DNA of 64,000 nt from Thermoflexus hugenholtzii JAD2 (GCA_945881915.1 CAMCVW010000007.1:1-64000); one strand, 5' to 3'; counted from the first letter of the stretch, positions 23,760-37,398 are shown. Numbers and translations: made by a program. Notes: generated by a model from the sequence alone, not told the origin.

Positions 23760-23801
23760 ATAATTCATAATTCATAATTCATAATTCATAATTCATAATT
23801 C
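23760..23801. repeat. heptamer repeat ATAATTC, 6 copies, at the chromate transporter 3' end
   Basis: Six perfect ATAATTC units. The last codons and TGA stop (23779-23781) of the minus-strand chromate transporter subunit are read from inside the array: its C-terminal residues MNYEL are repeat-encoded. The reverse complement GAATTAT forms half of the 14-base unit at 151-274. Confidence 0.95.
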
Positions 23802-24291
23802 CCACTATTCCCGCAATTATCAATACCACCGGCACTGGGATGCTGCGTCGCCAGGTAGTGACAACCGCAAACAGAGCGATTGCAAGGCTCTGCACATTGA
23901 TGCCGTTTTGCGCCATAATCCCAAGCAGAACCACCACAAACATGCTCGCAACTGCCAGCACGAGTCCACGGACAAATCCCTGCACGGCAGGGTGTGCACC
24001 GTACCGAAGATATACCGCATGCACACCGATGGCCGTGAGTGGTGGCAAGGCGATTGCCACCAATGCCAACGTAGCCCCACGAACCCCGTCAATCAAGTAG
24101 GCTAGACTCAACACCCATAGCCCCGTAGGGCCTGGGCTGAGTTGCCCGATCGCCAATGCTTCGGCAAACATGGATTCCGTGGCCCAGCCGTTTGCCAATA
24201 AATCGGTGTGCAACATGGGCAGATTCCCTGTCCCTGAAGTCGAAAAGAGGGCTGACTTCAAAAACATCCAAAACAAATCCCATCCACTCAT
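23779..24291 (-). CDS. chromate transporter, second half-protein
   Basis: A 170-residue membrane protein with about five helices and the CHR-domain signature GQLSPGPTGLWVLSLAYL (compare GxxPGP in ChrA). With the upstream gene it forms a two-chain transporter of the short-chain ChrA type, which exports chromate in characterised cases. The ATG follows GAGGGAAG and overlaps the upstream stop. The C-terminus is encoded by a heptamer repeat, so its length could change with repeat slippage. Confidence 0.8.
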   Translation of the reverse strand: MSGWDLFWMFLKSALFSTSGTGNLPMLHTDLLANGWATESMFAEALAIGQLSPGPTGLWVLSLAYLIDGVRGATLALVAIALPPLTAIGVHAVYLRYGAHPAVQGFVRGLVLAVASMFVVVLLGIMAQNGINVQSLAIALFAVVTTWRRSIPVPVVLIIAGIVGIMNYEL

Positions 24292-24896
24292 ACTGACTTC
24301 CCTCTGCGTATCCAGACAGCACCAAGGGCGCACCAGATTCCTGCTCCCCACAAAATAACGACCGCGGGCAGTGCGCTCAACCCCAACAACACCGGCGTAA
24401 TCAGCACTACCACCATACAGACCGCAAGCATGCCTCGACCATCACGACGACTCGCCGTGAGCGCGGGACGCAGCATTTGTACCGCCAAGACCGTTCCGAC
24501 GCCAACAGTCGCAGGAATGATTCCATGCACCGCCGCGATGACGATGTGATTTGTACGGATGGTTGCATACCCCGCCGTTAGCACCAGTGTTATCAGCGCA
24601 CTCGGTATCAGCAAGCCACACATCGCAGCTAGCGCACCCCGTAGTCGTGCAACGCGATACCCGATGAGTACGGCTTGACCGATGAGATTGATCCCTGGCG
24701 CAATCTGGACCATCCCCCAATACTGGCTATATTCTTCATCAGTTACCCAATGCTGTTCCTCGACCGTGATTCGCCGCATCAGGTATAGCGTCGTCGCCCC
24801 GCCACCGAATGACTGCATCCCAATTGCAACAAATGACCGAACCAACCCCCAGATTTGGCGTGTGTTGTCGACGGTTTGTTCCACGGCATTCCTCAT
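24288..24896 (-). CDS. chromate transporter, first half-protein
   Basis: A 202-residue membrane protein with the N-terminal CHR signature SFVAIGMQSFGGGATTLYLM and VQIAPGINLIGQAVLIGY, then about five helices. It pairs with the gene at 23779, overlapping it by four bases (ATGA). Short-chain CHR proteins work as heterodimers of opposite topology. GAGGA precedes the ATG. Confidence 0.8.
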   Translation of the reverse strand: MRNAVEQTVDNTRQIWGLVRSFVAIGMQSFGGGATTLYLMRRITVEEQHWVTDEEYSQYWGMVQIAPGINLIGQAVLIGYRVARLRGALAAMCGLLIPSALITLVLTAGYATIRTNHIVIAAVHGIIPATVGVGTVLAVQMLRPALTASRRDGRGMLAVCMVVVLITPVLLGLSALPAVVILWGAGIWCALGAVWIRRGKSV

Positions 24897-26182: not shown

Positions 26183-27712
26183 ATGGAAGGTATTTTGCCA
26201 ATTATCATGCTGTTTATCGGCGTTGCTGCGGGTTTCGGCATCGCTTTGTTCATCAATAAAACCAACACACAGAATTTGATTTCGCGCAATGATACAGAAT
26301 GGCAACTCAAACTCGAATCGATTCGAACCGAACACAAAGAACTCAAGATGCAGGCTTCAGACGAAGCGCTGCGCATCCGTACAGATGCCGAAAACCACGT
26401 CCGTGAAGCGCGCCAAAATCTGCGCCAACAAGAAGAACGCATCACGCGCAAAGAAGAAGCACTTGACCGTAAGGTTGAGGGTGTCGAACGCCGTGAACGC
26501 CAGATCACCCAGCGCGAGCGCCAAGCTGAGCTTACCAATGCCGAAGCCGAGCAGTTCAAGTTGCAGCAACGCACCGAGCTAGAGCGCATCTCGGGTCTCA
26601 GTGAAGAACAGGCCCGCGAAGTCATTCTCGCCAAGGTCGAAGCCGAAGCCCGTGACGAATCTGCGCGCCGCATCCGCGAGATAGAACGCGTCGCCCAAGA
26701 CGAATCGGACAAGACCGCCCGGAAAATCATCAGCATGGCGATTCAACGGTGTGCGTCCGATTACGTCGCCGAAATCACGGTTTCGACTGTGCCTCTTCCC
26801 TCCGAAGAAATCAAAGGTCGTATCATCGGTCGCGAAGGGCGCAACATCCGTGCCTTTGAGCAGATCACCGGCGTCGACATCATCGTCGACGATACCCCAG
26901 ACGCCGTCACCCTGTCGTGTCATGACCCCGTCCGTCGTGAAGTCGCCCGTCTGTCTTTGGGCAAACTCCTCAAGGACGGGCGTATTCATCCGACCCGCAT
27001 CGAAGAAGTCGTCCAGAAAACCCAGCAGGAACTCGATGTGGTCATGCGCGAAGAAGGCGAGCGCGTCGCCTATGAAGCCAACGTACAGGGCCTACACCCC
27101 GATTTGATTAAACTTCTCGGACGGCTCAAGTTCCGTACCAGCTACGGGCAAAACGTCCTGCATCACTCGCTCGAGTGCGCTCTGCTGGCGTCACACATGG
27201 CTGCCGAACTCGGTGCAAACATCGCCATCGCCAAAACCGCTGCCTTGTTGCACGACATCGGCAAAGCCGTCGACCACGAAGTCCAAGGACCACACGCAGT
27301 CATCGGCGCAGACATCGCCAAACGGCTCGGTCGTTCGCCGGCCATTGTCCACGCAATCGCAGCCCACCACAACGACGAAGAACCAACCACGGTCGAAGCA
27401 TTCTTGGTCCAAGCGGTCGATGCAATCTCGGGCGGTCGTCCGGGTGCACGCCGTGAGACACTCGATTTGTACATCAAACGGCTCGAAGCCCTCGAAGGCG
27501 TGGCAACGTCATTCGAAGGTGTCCAACGTGCCTTTGCCGTCCAAGCCGGGCGTGAAGTGCGCATCATGGTCGTCCCCGAGACAATCGACGACCTCGGTAG
27601 CATTCAATTGGCTCGCAATATCGCCAAAAAAATCGAAGAAAGCCTGCAATATCCTGGTCAAATCAAAGTAACGGTCATCCGCGAAACGCGTACGACCGAA
27701 TACGCCCGCTAA
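26183..27712 (+). CDS. rny: ribonuclease Y
   Basis: A 509-residue endoribonuclease. It has an N-terminal membrane helix ([20 protein letters not shown]), a long coiled coil to about residue 180, a KH domain (about 205-270, with [17 protein letters not shown]) and an HD domain with [14 protein letters not shown] and [17 protein letters not shown]. RNase Y starts mRNA decay at the membrane in many bacteria lacking RNase E. GAAGGG precedes the ATG. It is monocistronic, with its own promoter and terminator. Confidence 0.97.
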
Positions 27713-27719
27713 CCTGCCC

Positions 27720-27756
27720 AAGCCTCCGATGCATGTATGTGCTTCGGAGGCTTTTT
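27720..27756 (+). terminator. intrinsic terminator of rny
   Basis: AAGCCTCCGA (27720-27729) pairs with TCGGAGGCTT (27744-27753), followed by a short T-tract. Confidence 0.9.
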
Positions 27757-28172
27757 GTGCATGTTTGCGCAACCCCAAGGACGAATCCCTCGACTCTCGT
27801 CGACGACAGCGCATCCCCGCTATCCCAGTCAAACACAGCAACGATTGTCGAACATTCTCGTCACAACGCAATCGCGACGGTGCGTTCTGGCGGTATGTGT
27901 TCCCTCTGGCTGCCGAACTGCAAACAGACAGGGCAGGTGCATTGGGGTGTTCGATGCAATCTCCCATGCAAATTCGACCCAGTCCGCTGCAGAACTCGAA
28001 TTCGATGCAGCACCACATGCATAGACAGATGCTTCCAACATGAAGCATCGCAAGCCCTGCTTCTCTGGTTTTCGCACGGTTGACGGCCCTGAACAGCACC
28101 TGCACCCCACGCGGCCATCGATTGATTGCCGTTTTAGTGCTTAGAATCATGAGGATTCCTGCAATTCGCATG
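27757..28172. other. non-coding gap before the hydrogenase-like operon
   Basis: About 415 bases without a gene I can support. Frames exist on both strands (for example a minus-strand frame over 27829-28110), but none has a ribosome binding site or a recognisable family. Composition is coding-like, so this could be a decayed gene. It sits where a NuoC-like subunit gene might be expected, but no such motif was found. Confidence 0.4.
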
Positions 28173-28178
28173 TATAAT
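28173..28178 (+). promoter_or_regulatory. -10 box of the hydrogenase-like operon
   Basis: TATAAT, 28 bases before the GTG start at 28206. No -35 resembling TTGACA is found at the right distance. Confidence 0.5.
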
Positions 28179-28205
28179 TAGGGCAGTCAATCATGGGAGT
28201 TTTGC

Positions 28206-29279
28206 GTGACGTATGCACTCACACTCGGACCGTTCCACGCAGCATGGCGTGGTCCACAACGATTCATCATGGACATAGATGGCGAGTCGATTACCAACAT
28301 CGACTGCCACAGCGGTATGAATGCCCGCAATTGCACCGATATCATTTGCCGGACTGCGCTTATCGACGTTCCGGCTATCGTTGCACGCGTCTGTGGGACG
28401 TGTAGCCACGCTCATTCGTTGGCCTATGCCCATGGCCTCGAGGTAATCAATCGCATCCAAGTGCCAATACACGCGCGAATCATCCGGGTTATTGTCTGTG
28501 AACTCGAACGAATCGCGATGCACCTCGCTGGTGCAGCTACGGTCTGCGATATTGTCGGCGTGACGCAACACAGTACCGACCTGCGCCAGCTCCAATTTGC
28601 CGCCAATACCTTACTGCTCGAAGTCATCGGGAAGCGAACCAATCACGTCGTCATCGTTCCCGGCGGTGTCACAATCGAACCGACGACCCGCATACAGCAG
28701 ACGCTACAGGCGGGAATAAGTAGCTTCATCAAAGCACTCTATCGCTCCATCGATCACATCATCGACGACCATCGACTGCTTGCCCGAACGGTAAACGTCG
28801 GAGTACTGAGCAATCAGGTCGCAAACCAATTACTGGTCGGCGGCGTCATAGGGCGGGCTTCCGGTGTTGCAAATGACAGCCGATTTACGCATCCTTATGA
28901 CGCGTACAGTATGTTTGAGGCATCAATGGTGACCCAAGATGGCGGCGACGTCTATGCACGACTCATGGTTATGCTCCTCGAAGCGCACGAAAGTGCCAAA
29001 CTCATCGACCAAGCTAATCGGCAGATGAAGGGCGGCAATACGGCAAATCCGGTGTACGAATCCATTGCAGGAAGCGCGGTAGGGACCGCCGAAGGCCCGC
29101 GTGGACTGATTACGTATGCGATTACGGCAGCGAACGCAGGGATTACCCGGTGCGAAATCAAAATCGAACGACAACTCGACCGTTCCCTCATCCAAGCACT
29201 ATCCGCAAATGCACAGATCGACGATGTAATTACCATCATTGCGTCGACCGATTCGTGTAGCGCATGCGCTGAGCACTAA
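28206..29279 (+). CDS. group-4 [NiFe]-hydrogenase-like large subunit
   Basis: A 357-residue protein of the NuoD/EchE/HyfG family. The first metal motif is RVCGTCSHAH (61-70, Cys63 and Cys66). The second is DSCSACAEH at the very C-terminus (Cys351 and Cys354). All four cysteines that bind Ni and Fe in hydrogenases are kept, unlike in complex I NuoD. The usual DPC is DSC. The chain ends at the final His, so there is no C-terminal extension for an endopeptidase to remove. It starts with GTG behind ATGGGAG and is first in an operon of membrane subunits. Confidence 0.8.
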   Translation: MTYALTLGPFHAAWRGPQRFIMDIDGESITNIDCHSGMNARNCTDIICRTALIDVPAIVARVCGTCSHAHSLAYAHGLEVINRIQVPIHARIIRVIVCELERIAMHLAGAATVCDIVGVTQHSTDLRQLQFAANTLLLEVIGKRTNHVVIVPGGVTIEPTTRIQQTLQAGISSFIKALYRSIDHIIDDHRLLARTVNVGVLSNQVANQLLVGGVIGRASGVANDSRFTHPYDAYSMFEASMVTQDGGDVYARLMVMLLEAHESAKLIDQANRQMKGGNTANPVYESIAGSAVGTAEGPRGLITYAITAANAGITRCEIKIERQLDRSLIQALSANAQIDDVITIIASTDSCSACAEH

Positions 29280-29293
29280 AGGAACCATCCACT

Positions 29294-31054
29294 ATGGAAC
29301 TTGTGGCGCTGATACTACCGCTGCTCGCAGGAATTACGGCCTGGTCAATCGACCGGGTCGTACCAACCCGACAAATCGGCTTCCTCGCTATTGGCAGTTT
29401 GTTGATTAGCGCGCTGATGCTGGTGCTGTCGGGGGTTCTCAATGGCCTGCCGCTGCAGCTCCTGCCGTTTGACTGGATGAGAATTGAAGGGTTTGTGACG
29501 ACGCTCTCGCTCCGTTTTGATGCATTCACGTGGGTGGTTGCATTGATATTGTTGCTGGGGAGTGCCGCCGGCATGATTGGGCTGATCCATTCACTCCCCT
29601 ATCAACTACGGAACTACGGTCGTCTGCTGGCACTTCTGCTTTTTCATGTGACCATCATTTTGGTCGGTGTCGCCGCCCAAGATTCTGTGTTGCGTGTATT
29701 CGCATGGGGACTTGCTGCCATGATTGGTGGCATCATCATGCGTCTGAGCGGGGCACTACCGGGCAGTGACACGCCACTGATTAGCATCGTTGGCGGTATC
29801 GCCGGAGCAATCATGCTCCTCGTTGCCGTCACCTGGCGGCAATACATTCCAAGCGGACCACTCCCTGGGGCATTGATTGTCTGCTGGACTCTTGCAGCGT
29901 TCCTGGGAATGGGTTTGGCCCCGTTCCACGGCTATGTGGCTGGGATGAGCAGCGCTCCTGCGATTTTAGCTATTTTCCTCGTACCGCTTGGCATACCACT
30001 CCTGGGTGCATTGACATTCATCGACATGATGTCCACTCAAGGCCCACTCATCTCTGAATACTGGCGCACAGTGCTTATCATCGTTGCGATTATCAGCGCC
30101 CTCGGGACTGCAGTCGGTGCAATTGGTTCAACCCGGTTACGCACACTGTATGGTTGGCATAGCAGCTCCGTGTATGCAGTACTGGTCCTTGCCGCCGTGA
30201 GTGACCTCCAGATTTTGGCATATGGGGTGCCGGTATTGCTCATCACTGCAATGCTGAGTCTCTGTATCATCGCATTGAGCATCGCATTCATCGAAACACG
30301 CAATTACACAGACGACCTCCTCAAACTACGCCCGCGTGCCCGCATTGGTTTTGCCGGAGTCTTATTGTTTGTCGCAGTTGCAGCGTCTATTGGTTTGCCT
30401 GGTACGATTGGCTTCATCTCGCGCTGGTGGATGGCGGAGGTGCTGATGATACACGCACCATGGATTATCATCGCCATCCTCATCAGCGGGTCAGTGCTCG
30501 GGCTCGCCTGGTCAGGTGCGCTATCGACTATTTGGCGACGCATCCCCAAAGGCACCAATACCGATTTACCGGTTATCTCCGCCATCCCTACATTCGTCGC
30601 CTTACTCAGTCCGATTGTTTTTGCTGGTGCACTACTGCTCACGGGATTTGTGCCGCAGGTACTCTGGAAGCTTTGGCTCGATCCCCTACAGGATCGTTCT
30701 GCGTTCGATAGTGTCATTACTCCACCTTCAATGCCCGGCATTGAGCTGCAGTTGATCCTGACAGCGGTTTCTGTCTTGCTGGTTGCCGTACCCGTCTATG
30801 CAAGCCGGCTGCGTCAGCGCGACATCGCAAACCCGAACGATGTCGGCTCTACTTCGGTTCCTCCAGTCGCCACCGCCGAAAGCCTGTCATTTCTGAGTTC
30901 TTTTGTGAATCCAACCCGACTTTTGGCAAGTATCTGGGAACTGTTGATTCGTTTTGGGAATGCTCTTCAATGGGTACTCAGGCTGGGCGAAGAACGCTAT
31001 TATGTAGCAGGACTCGTCCTTGGTTTGATTGTCATTGTGTTATTGTTGATTTGA
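29294..31054 (+). CDS. NuoL/HyfB-like antiporter-type subunit
   Basis: A 586-residue protein with about sixteen hydrophobic helices, in the proton-conducting membrane transporter family. Recognisable segments are ALRFDAFTWVVAL-like (LSLRFDAFTWVVALIL), LGMGLAPFHGYVAGM (compare PFHxWLP) and IGLPGTIGFISRWW. Such subunits move protons or sodium ions in complex I and group-4 hydrogenases. It follows the large subunit after 14 bases. The C-terminal 130 residues add a loop and an extra helix. Confidence 0.8.
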   Translation: MELVALILPLLAGITAWSIDRVVPTRQIGFLAIGSLLISALMLVLSGVLNGLPLQLLPFDWMRIEGFVTTLSLRFDAFTWVVALILLLGSAAGMIGLIHSLPYQLRNYGRLLALLLFHVTIILVGVAAQDSVLRVFAWGLAAMIGGIIMRLSGALPGSDTPLISIVGGIAGAIMLLVAVTWRQYIPSGPLPGALIVCWTLAAFLGMGLAPFHGYVAGMSSAPAILAIFLVPLGIPLLGALTFIDMMSTQGPLISEYWRTVLIIVAIISALGTAVGAIGSTRLRTLYGWHSSSVYAVLVLAAVSDLQILAYGVPVLLITAMLSLCIIALSIAFIETRNYTDDLLKLRPRARIGFAGVLLFVAVAASIGLPGTIGFISRWWMAEVLMIHAPWIIIAILISGSVLGLAWSGALSTIWRRIPKGTNTDLPVISAIPTFVALLSPIVFAGALLLTGFVPQVLWKLWLDPLQDRSAFDSVITPPSMPGIELQLILTAVSVLLVAVPVYASRLRQRDIANPNDVGSTSVPPVATAESLSFLSSFVNPTRLLASIWELLIRFGNALQWVLRLGEERYYVAGLVLGLIVIVLLLI

Positions 31055-31061
31055 GGTATGT

Positions 31062-31784
31062 ATGGTCGAATTTTTTCTGACACAATGGTCACTCCTGGGC
31101 ATCGCAGCCTCGGCTGGCATAATCCTACTGGCACAAAAACGGCGCAGTACCTTGCTGGGGTTACTCCTGAACTATCTGTTTGTCGCAGCATTTTTGTCGC
31201 AACAACAATTCATCACACCCGATTTATCGCTGTTGGGCTACATGGTGAGTACGACGGTGCTGGTGAAAATCATCGCTGGGTTGTCTGCCGTTCTTATCCT
31301 CGGTATCACTGCATTGACGTTTTCTCGCGAGGAAGGAACCGAAGCACTCGACGAGTTTTCGTTGGCCGAGCTACGCCGGGCTGCCCGACGCGCCCAACGC
31401 CAAAAAATGATTGCCCCGCTCCGACTTGCGGACTTCGTGGTTCCGTTATGGGCACTCATCCTCGCGGCTATTGCGAGTTTTGTGTTGCCACGCTTGTACC
31501 CCATCGGGAGTGAATCTGTAGACTTCGCATGGTATTGGTTGACGTTGACCGGCATTTTTACGATAGTGACTGCCAACGACGTCCTCAAACTTGGACTCGG
31601 TTTGCTTTTGTGTGTGAGCAGTATCGATTTGTTGTATACCGCTATCGCAAGCACCATCCAGGTTTTTCCACTCGCAATGCTCGGGCTCACGACAATTGTG
31701 CTTTCGCTTTCGGTGTCGTATTTGAGTGCGTTGATGTACGGGCGCCTCAAGACACTCGAACTCAATGAGTTGTATAAACGCTGA
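31062..31784 (+). CDS. membrane subunit, HyfE/NuoK-like
   Basis: A 240-residue protein. It has three N-terminal helices, a charged cytoplasmic loop (LAELRRAARRAQRQKM, about 105-120) and three to four C-terminal helices including LKLGLGLLLCVSSIDLLYTA, which resembles the NuoK/HyfE pattern. Position between two antiporter-like genes fits the HyfE slot of hydrogenase operons. The stop overlaps the next start (TGATG). Family assignment rests on order and topology. Confidence 0.55.
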   Translation: MVEFFLTQWSLLGIAASAGIILLAQKRRSTLLGLLLNYLFVAAFLSQQQFITPDLSLLGYMVSTTVLVKIIAGLSAVLILGITALTFSREEGTEALDEFSLAELRRAARRAQRQKMIAPLRLADFVVPLWALILAAIASFVLPRLYPIGSESVDFAWYWLTLTGIFTIVTANDVLKLGLGLLLCVSSIDLLYTAIASTIQVFPLAMLGLTTIVLSLSVSYLSALMYGRLKTLELNELYKR

Positions 31785-33241
31785 TGCTCTACTTACTTAT
31801 CATTTTCTTCCCCTTAGCCGTCGCTGCAGGCATGTTCCTGCTTCGTTCGCAGCCGATTCCATCGATTGTCGGTGCAATCATCTGTGTGACAACGCAAGCC
31901 GTTTTGGTGCTGAAACTCCCTGTCGATGCGCCGGTCCGATTGCTCGGCTTGACGCTGACGATTGATCCATTGGGGCAATTGGTGCTCCTCACCATCCTGG
32001 GAATTGCGCTGTTTGCCTACGTAGTGACGTTTTTCATCACCCATGGGGAGCATTTTATTCCGGTGAGTCTCTTGCTGCTGGGCTTTACGAGCACGACTGT
32101 TCTCCTCCTCCAAGAGCCATTCGTCGCCGCGTTGCTGATGGTCAGCAGCGGATTAGTCGCAATTTTGGCCATCGTCGATTTGCCTATAGGCAGCACCGTA
32201 TTGGTCGAGCGCTCCCCGCTGATTACCGCATTGCACTATCTCGTCCTCGTCTTACTCTCGGGTTTTGCAATGTATATGGCGTTCGTGTTGTTGACGATAT
32301 ACTGGCCGACTGAAGCAAACGGGCAGACTTCCCCGTCGCATCTCATCATTGCCCTTTTGATCGTAGGCTTCGGGATGCGTTTTGCGATTTTTCCATTCCA
32401 TTCGTGGCTCATCGAAGTGGCGGAGTTCTCGGCGCCGATGGTGACCGTGTTTATCATCACTGCGCTCAACAGCACCGGCCTTTTGTTCTTGATTTCGACG
32501 TTCCAGTTTTTCCCCATCATCGTCACCGAAAACGAACGGGGCATGCGCGTACTGATGGTACTGGGCGCAGTCACGATGATCTTGTCTGCCCTCTTTGGAC
32601 TCGCGACTCCGCACCTGCGACGCACACCCAGTTATCTGATTGTGGGCAACAGCGGGTTCATACTCGTTGGGGTTGCCAGTGCATCGAGCAGCGGTTTGGC
32701 CGGTTCTATCCTCGAATTATTCAACCACATGATCGCTGTGATGGTCATATTTGTATCGATTGCGCTGCTCGAACGTCCTGATGGTCGCCCAGTGGTAACC
32801 ATCCGCCGCGATTTGTTATGGCGTTGGCCGCTCGCGGGAAGCGGATTCATTGGCGGGTGTCTATTGTTGCTCGGTGCACCACCATTCAGCTCATTCACCA
32901 GTAAAGTGTTAATCTATGATGCCGCGTCACGTACCGGACCAGGGTATGTGGTCCTGCTGGGTATCGGTACATTGTTGATGCTGGCAGCAATTGCACGTCT
33001 GCTCTACGAACGTCTGCTCGGTGCCGCCGAAGAACTCCCTACCGAAGAAATGCCCATCCTGATGGCAACGAGTGAAGTCGCCAATAGCGAGCGCCGGCAA
33101 CTTTTGGAACCGGTCGGATTGACCATCGTCATGTTCGTGTTGCTCGGCATCAGCGCAACGGTAGGGGTCTATCCGCAGTTGCTGTTGTCCACCATCGAAG
33201 AAGTCATTCGCGGTCTGACCTTTGTCCACGTGGCCTCGTAA
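31784..33241 (+). CDS. NuoM/NuoN/HyfF-like antiporter-type subunit
   Basis: A 485-residue membrane protein with about fourteen helices. It has LTIDPLGQLVLLTILGIALFAYV near the N-terminus and FAIFPFHSWLIEVAEFSAPMV in the middle, the family's discontinuous-helix region, then GAPPFSSFTSKVLIY, matching GxPPxxGFxxK. It is the second ion-translocating-type subunit of the complex. The start overlaps the stop of the HyfE-like gene. Confidence 0.8.
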   Translation: MLYLLIIFFPLAVAAGMFLLRSQPIPSIVGAIICVTTQAVLVLKLPVDAPVRLLGLTLTIDPLGQLVLLTILGIALFAYVVTFFITHGEHFIPVSLLLLGFTSTTVLLLQEPFVAALLMVSSGLVAILAIVDLPIGSTVLVERSPLITALHYLVLVLLSGFAMYMAFVLLTIYWPTEANGQTSPSHLIIALLIVGFGMRFAIFPFHSWLIEVAEFSAPMVTVFIITALNSTGLLFLISTFQFFPIIVTENERGMRVLMVLGAVTMILSALFGLATPHLRRTPSYLIVGNSGFILVGVASASSSGLAGSILELFNHMIAVMVIFVSIALLERPDGRPVVTIRRDLLWRWPLAGSGFIGGCLLLLGAPPFSSFTSKVLIYDAASRTGPGYVVLLGIGTLLMLAAIARLLYERLLGAAEELPTEEMPILMATSEVANSERRQLLEPVGLTIVMFVLLGISATVGVYPQLLLSTIEEVIRGLTFVHVAS

Positions 33242-33251
33242 GGAGCCCTCC

Positions 33252-33644
33252 ATGCCGCAGCAGATACGCGTCTTTCGTGCAAATACCGGTTCTTGTGGCG
33301 GGTGTGATGCCGAATTGGTCCTTGCACTCCACAAAGAGCGCGACATGGTCGTCGCAAATGCCCTCATCGATGCCGATGTGTGGCTCCTTACGGGAGTGAT
33401 GGCGCCATACCCGCGTAGCGTGCTGAGCCAAACATACAGTAGCATGTCGACTCCGCCGATTATCATTGCTGTGGGACAATGTGCCATCAGCGGCGCCCCC
33501 TTTGGCCGTGCCGGTGTGGGCAATGCCCCGGAATTACCAATTAGCTATACCATTGATGGATGCCCTGTCTCGCAGGCAGTGGTCATTAGTGCGATACGCA
33601 CGGCGCTGACAAATCGTGATCGCAAACGACGCGAGCGCGTCTAG
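33252..33644 (+). CDS. NuoB/EchC-like [4Fe-4S] small subunit
   Basis: A 130-residue protein with the four-cysteine pattern of the proximal cluster: Cys15 and Cys18 (GSCGGCDAE), Cys77 (GQCAISGAPF) and Cys104 (DGCPVS). This is the cluster closest to the active site in complex I and group-4 hydrogenases. The ATG is chosen behind AAGGAG rather than an earlier ATG. It is shorter than most NuoB proteins but close to EchC-type subunits. Confidence 0.85.
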   Translation: MPQQIRVFRANTGSCGGCDAELVLALHKERDMVVANALIDADVWLLTGVMAPYPRSVLSQTYSSMSTPPIIIAVGQCAISGAPFGRAGVGNAPELPISYTIDGCPVSQAVVISAIRTALTNRDRKRRERV

Positions 33645-33688
33645 TCCTTCCTGCGACATACCCCTTCGCCGACACCAAAGGAGCCGCT

Positions 33689-34501
33689 GTGGATATTGTG
33701 TTTGCCTATTTTCTTTACCCGGGTTTGCTCATCATTGCATTGTTGACGTTGGTATTTGGGTTTATTGTCGCGCAGCGACGCCCCGTGTTACCACCCAACT
33801 GGCGCCGATCGCTCTTGACGATTGATGGTTTCGCAGCGGTACTCAGCATGGTCCTGGCAATCGGCGCATCAATGTACATGCCATGGCCATTTAATCCTAT
33901 CTATACCTCAGTGGCAGGTCCGTTGCTGATGTGGGCAGCCCTTGAAGCAGCCTTCCTGGTGCCGTCATTAGTCGCACAAACGTCTGGTTCGGCACTCGTC
34001 GTGCGCGGTGCAGCCAGAGCACTGCAAATAGGCTTTGCAGGGCGGATAGTAATCTGGTGCGTCTTTGGTGCACTCTATTGGGCAAACCAAAGCTGGCACG
34101 TCAACCTCCTGCCCGCGTATGGATTGGCGTGGATCGCTGCCTTGATGGCATTGCCCGCAGCTATCGGCATTGGGATGTTTCGCAGCGACACCGCCCTGAC
34201 CGGCGTAATGACCACTGGGCTGGATTTGTCGACCGTTGCCCTGATGCAACTCGCCGCTGACGTGCGTTCAACGGTACTCATCGCAGCAGTTGCCACAAGC
34301 CTGGCACCCAAGGGCATTGAATCTGCGCCAGTGCGGATGGGCGCCGTATTGGCAGCTTACTTCGTGACGATGGTCGTCCTGCGCTTCCTCGTCAAAAACC
34401 AGCCCTTCACCACTTTGTCGGCTGCGTTACGGTGGTGTTGGTGGCGCGCGCTGCCACCCGCTTTGCTTGCACTCATCTATCTGCGCTTTATCACGGGCTA
34501 A
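33689..34501 (+). CDS. NuoH/EchB/HyfC-like membrane subunit
   Basis: A 270-residue protein with about eight helices, starting GTG behind AAAGGAG. It has YFLYPGLLIIALLTLVFGFIV, GPLLMWAALEAAFLVPSL and a C-terminal hydrophobic pair, the usual length and topology for the quinone-chamber/NuoH-type subunit of hydrogenases. The Glu-rich loop typical of complex I NuoH is not seen. Assignment is helped by its place after the small subunit. Confidence 0.6.
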   Translation: MDIVFAYFLYPGLLIIALLTLVFGFIVAQRRPVLPPNWRRSLLTIDGFAAVLSMVLAIGASMYMPWPFNPIYTSVAGPLLMWAALEAAFLVPSLVAQTSGSALVVRGAARALQIGFAGRIVIWCVFGALYWANQSWHVNLLPAYGLAWIAALMALPAAIGIGMFRSDTALTGVMTTGLDLSTVALMQLAADVRSTVLIAAVATSLAPKGIESAPVRMGAVLAAYFVTMVVLRFLVKNQPFTTLSAALRWCWWRALPPALLALIYLRFITG

Positions 34502-34504
34502 GTC

Positions 34505-35470
34505 ATGCAGTACGTCTCGTTGACCAATCTCAATATTCCAGGCTCTGCTATTCGTGATGTCACATTGCACATTCCAGAAGGCAGTTGCTACGGCATCATC
34601 GGTGCAGCAGGTACCGGCAAAAGCATGCTCCTCAATGCGATTGCTGGGCTATCGGGTAACGCCCTCGGGGGCATCAGCGTCGCTGGCTCGAGCGGACATC
34701 ACCGCCCAGGAAGCATCGGAATCCTCACCCCACGGGTCCAACTGCCAGCCCATCTCACCGTTCTCGAATTACTCACACGACTACGCACGCTGCGAAACGG
34801 CGCAGACGATCAGACAGAAGCTGATTGCTACAGTGCAATTCGTTGGTGTGCGCTCGAACAACTCACGCAAACACCTATTGCCAAGCTCTCGTTCTTCAAC
34901 AAAAGACGTGTTGCACTCGCAATGGCACTCGTCAATAAACCAGCTCTGCTGTTGCTCGATGAACCGACCGTCGACCTCGCCGCGCATGAACAGCAAGTCA
35001 TGATCGACATCCTCGAAAATCTGCGTGAGCGAAACATGACCATCATCATTGCAACCCGTGGGAACGCACCCATGGAATCGCTCTTCGATCAGATTGCAGT
35101 GTTGTCTGCCGGCAAAATCATAGCCGAACTCAGTGCCCAGCACATCCGCGATATGCAACGGACACTCATGATTCGCACCAGCGAAATCCCCACTGCAGCC
35201 TACGAACACATCGTCGCAATCGAAAGCGGCATCATCGTGACGCGGCGGAATATCGTTCTCACCGGCGATGGGGTTCGCTCCCTCGCCCAAATTCTTCAAG
35301 TACTCCTCCACTACAGCGTCCATATTTTCTGCATCGAACCACGCAATCATCCCCTCGCGGACCTTGTCATGCAGGCGCGCTACCCGGTCGTCCTCGCGCA
35401 TCGCTACCCCGTTCGCTTACTCACCAATGCAATCCGTGAATCCAATGCCACAGAAGAGGTAGCGTCATGA
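34505..35470 (+). CDS. ABC transporter ATPase with degenerate catalytic motifs
   Basis: A 321-residue protein. The nucleotide-binding domain (1-215) has Walker A GAAGTGKS (33-40) and Walker B LLLLDEPT (148-155). The signature is LSFFNKRR (128-135) instead of LSGGQ. The Q-loop position reads TPRVQL. The H-loop reads ATRGN instead of ATHD. A C-terminal domain of about 100 residues follows. It starts three bases after the NuoH-like gene and overlaps the next gene, so it belongs to the hydrogenase-like operon. ATP binding is likely; efficient hydrolysis is doubtful. Confidence 0.8.
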   Translation: MQYVSLTNLNIPGSAIRDVTLHIPEGSCYGIIGAAGTGKSMLLNAIAGLSGNALGGISVAGSSGHHRPGSIGILTPRVQLPAHLTVLELLTRLRTLRNGADDQTEADCYSAIRWCALEQLTQTPIAKLSFFNKRRVALAMALVNKPALLLLDEPTVDLAAHEQQVMIDILENLRERNMTIIIATRGNAPMESLFDQIAVLSAGKIIAELSAQHIRDMQRTLMIRTSEIPTAAYEHIVAIESGIIVTRRNIVLTGDGVRSLAQILQVLLHYSVHIFCIEPRNHPLADLVMQARYPVVLAHRYPVRLLTNAIRESNATEEVAS

Positions 35471-36198
35471 TGCGTCTCGTCCGCTGGATTCTCGATGATT
35501 ACATGCGCACACAACGTATCTTGGTCGAATGGGTGGCAGCAGTAGGAATCGCCTACGTTGCGTTACACGCACATTCTGATGCGGCATCTACTCTGGCAAC
35601 GTGGTCGCTCAGCGTCATTGCATTTGCCCTGTATACCACCTCGGTGATTGCCGACATCGCCGAACATCCGAGCAATCTTGTGCGCCTGTTACAACTGGAG
35701 TCGCGCCGAACCTACATCGTCGCATTCCTTGTCGCAACATTCATCATCGTTGCAAGCGGTTATGCATTACTCGTCGCCGCAACATACCTATTCGCGCAGG
35801 CAGCATTCCCTGACTGGCAGCTTTGGCTCACTACGATTCCTGCCATCATCATGCTCATCGTCACCGCCATCATTGTGATGATGCTTTTGACACCACTGGT
35901 TGCCGGACCGCTCCAACGGCTCGCGCTGCTGGCGTTCATCGCAGTACCATTGGCATGGGGTCGCGTCATTGCTGTTCTCCCCGACATGCTTCCCGGCACG
36001 GTTATGGCTGCATTCCAAGCGATGTCGACATTTTTCGGTATCATGCTCTGGCCCACCATGCAGCTCTATTCCCTCACCATCAACCCGCAATTCGACACAC
36101 TTTCGTTGCTCTTGGTTGTGATTCACTTACTCATCATCAGCGGCTTGACAGTACTTGCCGTTCGCTGGTATGACCGCAGGTCACTCACGATCGCCTGA
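35467..36198 (+). CDS. ABC-type membrane partner protein
   Basis: A 243-residue protein with six hydrophobic helices and a short charged N-terminus (MMRLVRWILDDYMRTQR). It overlaps the ATPase gene by four bases (ATGA), so it is almost certainly its membrane partner. The topology is like small ABC-2/CcmB-type permeases, but no diagnostic motif was recognised. It is last in the operon starting at 28206. Confidence 0.65.
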   Translation: MMRLVRWILDDYMRTQRILVEWVAAVGIAYVALHAHSDAASTLATWSLSVIAFALYTTSVIADIAEHPSNLVRLLQLESRRTYIVAFLVATFIIVASGYALLVAATYLFAQAAFPDWQLWLTTIPAIIMLIVTAIIVMMLLTPLVAGPLQRLALLAFIAVPLAWGRVIAVLPDMLPGTVMAAFQAMSTFFGIMLWPTMQLYSLTINPQFDTLSLLLVVIHLLIISGLTVLAVRWYDRRSLTIA

Positions 36199-36380: not shown

Positions 36381-37307
36381 CTACACTGATGCTTCGGGAG
36401 CGCGCTGTTCAAACGTGTATACGATCAACGCAACAAAGGCAAACCAAATGACATCTGCGAGGAAGAGATGCAAAAGCTGAATCCAAATCGGCGCTAACAA
36501 CACTGCATTGAGCGTGCCCAAGCCTATCTGCAACCCAAACGAACCATACAGCAACCAAGCGTATCGCTGTGTGATTGGTGTCTGCTGAATCGTCGCGAAC
36601 GCCCGTGCGACCGCCAACATGACAATACCGGTTGCTATCGCGATGGCGGGATGGGCAATACGCAATCGCAACAGGATACTCGAGGTCGCATCGAGTTCCT
36701 GCATCAATCCCTCTTTAAAGCTGGTCGCAGGGAACAATGTATCACCCAAGGCAGCAATACCACCGCTGGCACCGAGAATCAACATCATCAGTATGCCAAC
36801 GATTCCCCACAGCTTAGCGGGTCTTGGGACATCCCAGGTCGGTGCTCGTACCCCACGTACCCAGAATCCCGTCATGATAATCGCCGCCAACAAGAGCAAT
36901 GTGTTGATCAAATGGAGCGACATCGAATATGCCCGTGTCATCGAAGGATTGTGGGCCACGAGTTCAAATAAAACCAACATTGCACCCAGCAATGCTTCGA
37001 TAATCACGAACACGAATGAAGCGACCGCTCCCGCACGGACAATATGCCCTTTTGGGAAAAGCCGAAATCCAATGTAGAGCATCCCTGCAATCAGAAACAA
37101 CAGCAAACCGCTCGTAATCCGATGTGATATTTCGATGATTGTTTCGAGCATTGGCTCTCGTGGAATGATTTCACCATTACAGAGTGGCCAGTGGGCACCA
37201 CAACCTGCGCCAGATCCCGTGGCACGAACAAACGCACCCCACAAAATCACCAAAACCGTGTATCCCAACACCGTCCACACATAGCGCTCATAGCGTTTGA
37301 TAGCCAT
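36381..37307 (-). CDS. ctaA: heme A synthase (CtaA/COX15)
   Basis: A 308-residue membrane protein with eight helices. It has FVRATGSGAGCGAHWPLCNG, a Cys pair in the first outer loop as in CtaA, and heme-ligand histidines in ISHRITS, SLHLINT, RIAHPAIA and LLHLFLADV. It oxidises heme O to heme A for aa3-type cytochrome oxidase, implying aerobic respiration. AAGGATG precedes the ATG. It is transcribed alone, convergent with the hydrogenase-like operon. Confidence 0.92.
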   Translation of the reverse strand: MAIKRYERYVWTVLGYTVLVILWGAFVRATGSGAGCGAHWPLCNGEIIPREPMLETIIEISHRITSGLLLFLIAGMLYIGFRLFPKGHIVRAGAVASFVFVIIEALLGAMLVLFELVAHNPSMTRAYSMSLHLINTLLLLAAIIMTGFWVRGVRAPTWDVPRPAKLWGIVGILMMLILGASGGIAALGDTLFPATSFKEGLMQELDATSSILLRLRIAHPAIAIATGIVMLAVARAFATIQQTPITQRYAWLLYGSFGLQIGLGTLNAVLLAPIWIQLLHLFLADVIWFAFVALIVYTFEQRAPEASV

Positions 37308-37398
37308 ATTGTTACATCCTTCACAAACAAAGATGACGCAATTGTAGCCGAGCGGCAAAAAATGTGCAACACATAGGATGATGAGAGAATTGACCTGC

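Follow-up and report, generated by a model that had tools for sequence, protein, structure and literature searches.

Why should genes resembling those of an energy-converting hydrogenase lie in one tight array with genes for an ATP-binding cassette (ABC) pair? The question is raised by eight open reading frames (ORFs) at 28206-36198 of the 64,000-nucleotide stretch of DNA analyzed here, which we call the window (GCA_945881915.1 CAMCVW010000007.1:1-64000, recorded as Thermoflexus hugenholtzii JAD2). Our reading, to which we assign a probability of about 0.5, is that genes 1–8 (Table 1) encode a Chloroflexales-specific eight-subunit assembly built from a group-4 hydrogenase/complex I-type module, similar to the Ehr complexes and tied to a type V (NosFY/ABC-2-like) exporter. 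The complex and its operon are previously undescribed in the literature searched and fit no known family. Literature searches returned no description of the operon, and the available portions of published lists (PMC3150298, PMC8004040), which give two complex I clusters for C. aurantiacus and two complex I clusters plus two NiFe hydrogenases for C. aggregans, do not mention it for either species.

Co-inheritance of the eight genes in Chloroflexales

The operon marks the order Chloroflexales. Its best conserved membrane subunit, gene 3, was confined to this order among 84,980 species representatives, with 62 loci from Roseiflexaceae, Chloroflexaceae, Oscillochloris, Viridilinea, Chloroploca, and Herpetosiphon and its relatives. 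Among 400 Chloroflexota genomes, strong full-length gene 3 matches were found in 40 members of the order and in one other genome, G313, from another family of class Chloroflexia. Gene 8 exceeded 200 bits in exactly the 40 genomes with a full-score gene 3 and reached at most 87 bits elsewhere in the same 400. Orthologues of gene 1 scored far above complex I NuoD throughout Chloroflexales, the weakest matches in that search being complex I NuoD itself. The genus of the host consists mostly of lake-derived metagenome-assembled genomes (MAGs) of Roseiflexaceae (UBA965 group). Separately, a locus titled Singulisphaera sp. GP187 (L113) bears the Roseiflexaceae operon, with 83% identity in gene 3, and probably comes from a mislabelled MAG.

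The preliminary description of the window had placed the ABC pair with the hydrogenase-like genes, and its inheritance agrees: gene 8 was present in 57 of 60 order genomes, including all 47 near-complete ones, and was single-copy in 56. The three genomes with no gene 8 match are 60, 72, and 83% complete, and one fragmented genome (G041, 80% complete) yielded three matches. The operon is constant between genera and its flanking genes vary; recurrence of the gene order in dozens of genomes with differing flanks shows that it did not arise by chance. When the eight-gene order was sought in other Chloroflexota, as that description had advised, it was found across Chloroflexales and was split in two families. 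In Herpetosiphonaceae the break falls between genes 4 and 5, giving 1-4 and 5-6-7-8, and in family f2 between genes 6 and 7, giving 1-6 and 7-8; both halves are kept in each. Loss of the ABC pair in Herpetosiphon and f2 was considered and ruled out, the pair being present and unlinked from the rest. Since two distinct breakpoints both left the two halves in place, the gene content provides strong evidence that genes 1–8, ABC pair included, would work as one functional system.

Relatives carrying the hydrogenase-like genes without the ABC pair, which would speak against such a link, do not occur among the 47 near-complete genomes of Chloroflexales. One does exist outside the order: the G313 locus (L172, 8192-13873) is a five-gene version that encodes large, antiporter, HyfE-like, antiporter, and Cys-free small subunits (genes 1–5); gene 6 was not found there, nor gene 8 anywhere in the genome. 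The probable history is a gain of gene 6 and the ABC pair on the stem of Chloroflexales or their loss from G313.

Within the host genus, the ratio of nonsynonymous to synonymous substitution rates (dN/dS) was 0.02–0.09 for genes 1–7 and 0.11–0.14 for gene 8; synonymous sites approach or reach saturation in the more distant pairs, and for three values no estimate was possible. Such low ratios indicate purifying selection, which argues that the degenerate motifs described below are not the result of pseudogene decay.

Layout of the locus and identity of the subunits

The eight genes lie on the same strand with the close spacing and the coordinates initially given for them; successive gaps measure 14, 7, -1, 10, 44, 3, and -4 bases, and an alternative ORF start for gene 5 is possible at 33222. 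Upstream of gene 1 lies an RNase Y-like gene (26183-27712), and downstream of gene 8 an opposite-strand gene (36381-37358) that is CtaA/Cox15-like by eye. Given the 493-base upstream gap and the opposite orientation of the downstream neighbor, the eight genes form a self-contained transcription unit by anatomy. Neither a sigma-70-like site nor an Rfam element was found at 27713-28205. A scan for sigma-70 promoters and terminators gave no excess over shuffled sequence and neither favors nor disfavors an internal promoter, and an Rfam search of the window and four loci returned tRNA-Val only.

Table 1 Features of the operon in the window (TM, transmembrane helix; residue losses refer to canonical positions)
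Feature	Positions	Strand	Description	Basis
Gene 1	28206..29279	+	Group-4-hydrogenase/NuoD-like large subunit, 357 residues, GTG start	Pfam and profile matches
Gene 2	29294..31054	+	Antiporter-like subunit A, 586 residues; TM5 Glu and TM7 Lys lost	Proton_antipo_M
Gene 3	31062..31784	+	HyfE/NuoK-like membrane subunit, 240 residues, with insert LDEFSLAELRRAAR	
Gene 4	31784..33241	+	Antiporter-like subunit B, 485 residues; TM5 Glu and TM8 Lys lost, TM7 Lys replaced by Arg	Proton_antipo_M
Gene 5	33252..33644	+	NuoB-like small subunit, 130 residues; ligands CGGC, C, C for one [4Fe-4S]	Oxidored_q6
Gene 6	33689..34501	+	NuoH/HycD-like membrane subunit, 270 residues; E-channel residues lost	Predicted fold
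Gene 7	34505..35470	+	ABC ATPase, 321 residues; Walker A (34601-34624) intact	ABC_tran
Gene 8	35467..36198	+	Type V/ABC-2-type ABC permease, 243 residues	Predicted fold
L1 motif CGTC	28392..28403	+	Gene 1 residues 63-66; first would-be Ni ligand pair; intact in host	
L2 motif CSAC	29256..29267	+	Gene 1 residues 351-354, D-S just before; intact in host	
Degenerate ABC signature LSFFN	34886..34900	+	Gene 7 residues 128-132	
H-loop His replaced by Arg185	35057-35059	+	Gene 7	
Upstream gap, 493 bases	27713..28205		RNase Y-like gene to gene 1; expected place of operon promoter	

Most of the subunit assignments made at the outset hold. Gene 1 is a group-4-type large subunit by homology: its family profile is nearest to HycE of formate hydrogenlyase (238 bits), followed by MBH (218 bits), against at most 192 bits for complex I, and the likeness to HycE and MBH spans the full length, the C-terminal CxxC included. 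Formate hydrogenlyase and MBH likewise contain NuoB-like small, NuoH-like, and antiporter-like subunits. In Pfam, it matches Complex1_49kDa, and NiFeSe_Hases falls below the cut-off of that model. The two antiporter-type subunits (genes 2 and 4) and the NuoB-like small subunit (gene 5) are confirmed by their Pfam families, gene 4 scoring highest with Mrp D-type antiporter subunits. No Pfam or NCBIfam family covers gene 6, and its sequence match is weak; its predicted fold matches ND1/NuoH (E-value 3e-5, probability 1.0), in agreement with the NuoH-like label. The HyfE-like label of gene 3 fared less well. The gene has no Pfam, NCBIfam, or useful PDB sequence match, and its comparison with E. 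coli HyfE by hhalign was not significant; it looks HyfE-like from its operon position and from NuoK/HyfE-like residues seen by eye in the C-terminal half.

The last two genes, initially described as an ABC ATPase and a membrane protein, are indeed an ABC pair, and the membrane protein is predicted to be a type V/ABC-2 permease. Gene 7 is a generic DrrA/GldA-like ATPase by model scores, which names no substrate. Gene 8 belongs to no Pfam or NCBIfam family, and a PDB sequence search gave nothing useful; the nearest folds to its predicted structure (Foldseek) are NosY, ABCG, and PmtCD, with probability up to 1.00, TM-scores of about 0.5–0.65, and a best E-value of just 0.03.

Elsewhere in the window, at 23779-24896 on the minus strand, two adjoining half-size ORFs resemble by eye a split ChrA-type pair (chromate transporter family).

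Metal ligands, proton paths, and the ATPase

The complex was at first taken for an energy-converting hydrogenase, which its maturation genes and metal ligands do not bear out. HypD, which is needed for building the NiFe site, was absent from all 11 genomes of the host genus (the host genome is 98.6% complete) and from all six of Herpetosiphon genus g11, and HypB gave no match over cut-off in the host. HypD was found in 30 of 60 order genomes; missing in many carriers, it does not track the distribution of the operon. Ligands and other residues were counted in 27 representative gene 1 sequences. At the second Cys of L1, Herpetosiphonaceae have D and f2 has H, and the residue varies among D, H, S, and A across these and other lineages; all four would-be Ni-ligand Cys are gone in genomes of the G051 type. 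The equivalents of HycE Cys244 and of the canopy Asp529 are kept in 17/27 and 14/27, respectively. Those of His284 (26/27), Arg395 (27/27), and Glu437 (27/27) are nearly or fully invariant and are shared with complex I (NuoCD); the roles of the HycE residues are taken from PMC9474812.

The iron-sulfur subunit is similarly uneven. Gene 5 carries four Cys in the host genus, Roseiflexus, and f2, and is absent in 18 of 19 Chloroflexaceae-like genomes, where matches were at NuoB level only. In Herpetosiphonaceae it stands at a second locus and is Cys-free, by which its apparent absence from Herpetosiphon was ruled out. Neither ferredoxin-type nor NuoC-like subunits were found among the operon ORFs. 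With HypD absent, Ni and Fe-S ligands drifting, and the Fe-S subunit lost from a whole clade, the hydrogenase reading is not supported, and the residue patterns suggest that the complex probably no longer makes or uses H2.

The proposal that redox chemistry is coupled to ion flow likewise finds no support in the proton-path residues, which are lost in genes 2, 4, and 6. Across the order, other residues stand in place of the gene 2 TM5 Glu and TM7 Lys, both of which the G313 gene 2 retains. In gene 4, the TM5 Glu and TM8 Lys are lost, and Arg replaces the TM7 Lys in every sequence except one; Roseiflexaceae retain the TM12 Lys, which varies in Chloroflexaceae. The alignment of gene 6 is weak; in it, Arg and Ala occupy the positions equivalent to HycD Glu138 and Glu189 throughout, the acidic ND1 loop is shorter and for the most part neutral, and the Glu130 equivalent is kept in most lineages and lost in the host genus. 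Taken together, these substitutions suggest that the complex would not be a canonical redox-driven pump.

In other Chloroflexota, we observed a recurring antiporter–HyfE-like–antiporter module (L173-L181) in which no large or small subunit was detected; the canonical Glu and Lys are also missing from it in several genomes. Members of the order conserve the cytoplasmic insert of gene 3, LDEFSLAELRRAAR, and modules of this type lack it; the large subunit may dock there.

The ATPase has diverged along different lines. Canonical forms of gene 7 occur in Chloroflexaceae, Herpetosiphonaceae, f2, and Roseiflexus, with an [FYL]SKGM signature and the H-loop His in Chloroflexaceae, Herpetosiphon, and f2. 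Residues of the signature or the H-loop, or the catalytic Glu, are gone in five independent lineages; in the host genus, which is one of them, the signature reads LSFFN, without its Gly, and the H-loop His is Arg. Canonical members end in a conserved LLxELLxR-like tail (e.g., L040:7595-8650:-, L048:14391-15575:+) that is missing in the host genus and is possibly a docking tail.

Competing explanations and biological meaning

We prefer a mechanism in which an ABC exporter would work with an accessory refitted from a complex I-type assembly. The large subunit and the membrane arm (genes 1–4, with the NuoH-like gene 6) would dock on the exporter (genes 7–8) and act as its accessory or gate. Gene 7, in most lineages, would bind and hydrolyze ATP to drive a conformational change that either moves a substrate, probably an amphiphilic or envelope one, or services a membrane component as NosFY does. 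In lineages with a degenerate ATPase, the host included, the retained NuoB-like [4Fe-4S] subunit may serve as a redox input or sensor.

Several observations weigh against an eight-subunit, exporter-centered assembly. The occurrence of genes 1–5 without 6–8 in G313 means that the core can exist alone, and with the ABC pair unlinked in f2, physical contact between the two parts is only putative. ATPases of the ABC-2 kind are common, and the permease is fast-evolving (dN/dS up to 0.14). Antiporter-like subunits can tolerate the loss of Glu and Lys in some cases: the TM7 Lys is missing from E. coli HycC as well (PMC9474812). Cys occupies three of the four Ni-ligand positions in 25/27 representatives, more than expected from free drift, and the host keeps four Ni-ligand and four Fe-S cysteines, so that some metal chemistry is possible there. 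On the supporting side, the ATPase and the Fe-S subunit appear to be mutually exclusive in their losses: all five degenerate-ATPase lineages keep the 4-Cys small subunit, all four lineages lacking the small subunit or its Cys keep a canonical ATPase, and both are never lost together. In the gene tree, the small-subunit-intact part makes up 54% of the branch length, for which 5/5 gives P ~0.05; resting on five and four events and noticed post hoc, the pattern suggests such an exclusion. It would fit a two-input machine, in which the ATPase (ATP) and the Fe-S/large-subunit module (redox) act on one membrane arm and lineages drop either, never both, an idea that we consider rather improbable.

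Two alternatives give redox chemistry a central role. A true group-4 [NiFe] hydrogenase, evolving H2 and pumping ions with the ABC pair supplying nickel or a cofactor, would account for the proximity of gene 1 to HycE and MBH and for the intact CxxC pairs and 4-Cys small subunit of the host and most Roseiflexaceae. It is nevertheless very improbable, since the operon occurs where HypD is absent (host, its genus, Herpetosiphon g11), other lineages have lost the ligands or the small subunit, no ferredoxin-type or NuoC-like subunit is present, the pump and E-channel residues are gone, and the added permease has the predicted fold of an exporter rather than a nickel importer. We regard as doubtful a redox complex of the Ehr/Mbx type, in which the large subunit has ceased to bind NiFe and the small-subunit [4Fe-4S] cluster still feeds electrons to a quinone or another acceptor to power ion flow, with the ABC pair as an assembly factor. 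Ehr complexes are group-4 relatives without NiFe-binding motifs (PMC6349859, PMC10284858), and they and Mbx/MBS, all judged non-hydrogenases, have antiporter-like subunits. A 4-Cys small subunit persists in the host genus, Roseiflexus, and f2, and NosFY and CcmAB, type V pairs that serve cofactor enzymes, are among the fold matches of the permease. However, electron-input subunits are lacking from the operon, the small subunit is dispensable, being lost in Chloroflexaceae and Cys-free in Herpetosiphonaceae, and neither the pump residues nor the Glu cluster of the ND1 loop persists. Unlike Ehr, which has no CxxC motifs at all, many members here keep CxxC and several lineages have it damaged, a mixed picture, and an ABC pair is not known to us from Ehr complexes.

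Two further alternatives concern ion exchange and gliding. If genes 1–6 exchanged cations for H+ in the manner of Mrp, or regulated a leak, and the ABC pair were a separate exporter under shared regulation only, the top score of gene 4 with Mrp D-type subunits and the antiporter–HyfE-like–antiporter modules in other Chloroflexota would be explained; we consider this unlikely, as the diagnostic TM5 Glu and TM7 Lys are missing, a large subunit is present, and full co-occurrence with the ABC pair, even unlinked, points beyond shared regulation. A part in the gliding machinery of the filamentous Chloroflexales, with a GldA-like ATPase, seems highly improbable. Canonical gene 7 members match the GldA model with 176–193 bits over nearly the whole length, as their second-best match, the operon is distributed over the order that includes gliding filaments, and the gliding machinery of Chloroflexus and its energy source are listed as unknown (PMC7004002). 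But these scores lie below the cut-off of 402 and below DrrA; gene 8 has no Pfam or NCBIfam permease family match and hence no assignment as a GldF/GldG partner; a GldF-like permease occurs elsewhere in the host (L205, G000:C31:15252-15932; 156 bits, below cut-off); and the host belongs to a lake lineage whose ATPase is degenerate, and the pump residues are lost.

Our preferred reading, the exporter with a complex I-type accessory, was also compared with complex I and with type V exporters. Complex I (NuoB, D, H, K, L, M) shares the NuoH fold, as predicted for gene 6, and the invariant His, Arg, and Glu of the large subunit; it differs in its NADH module, NuoC, NuoI, acidic ND1 loop, and pump residues, all missing here, and separate NuoD-type matches occur in nearly all carrier genomes. 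With NosFY, PmtCD, Wzm-Wzt, ABCG, and CcmAB, the pair shares the predicted ABC-2-like permease fold and the arrangement of one ATPase gene and one permease gene. Unlike these exporters, the permease has no detectable sequence family, the ATPase is degenerate in several lineages, and the pair is always coinherited with a complex I-like assembly. By descent, the complex is of group-4/Ehr type; by the features examined it does not qualify as a hydrogenase or a proton pump, and it is mixed in the CxxC feature of Ehr.

The complex I/group-4 hydrogenase superfamily is understood as a family of redox-driven ion pumps. In a whole order, to which the model phototrophs Chloroflexus and Roseiflexus belong, a version is maintained without most of the redox and pumping residues, yet under strong purifying selection and linked to a predicted ABC exporter. 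To our knowledge there is no earlier ATP-driven member of the superfamily; if the two-input machine were real, it would be the first, with transport instead of respiration as its job. The cultured carriers C. aurantiacus, R. castenholzii, and H. aurantiacus make experiments possible. The operon would be an example of a respiratory complex adapted to a different task, and it may account for a trait of the Chloroflexales at order level.

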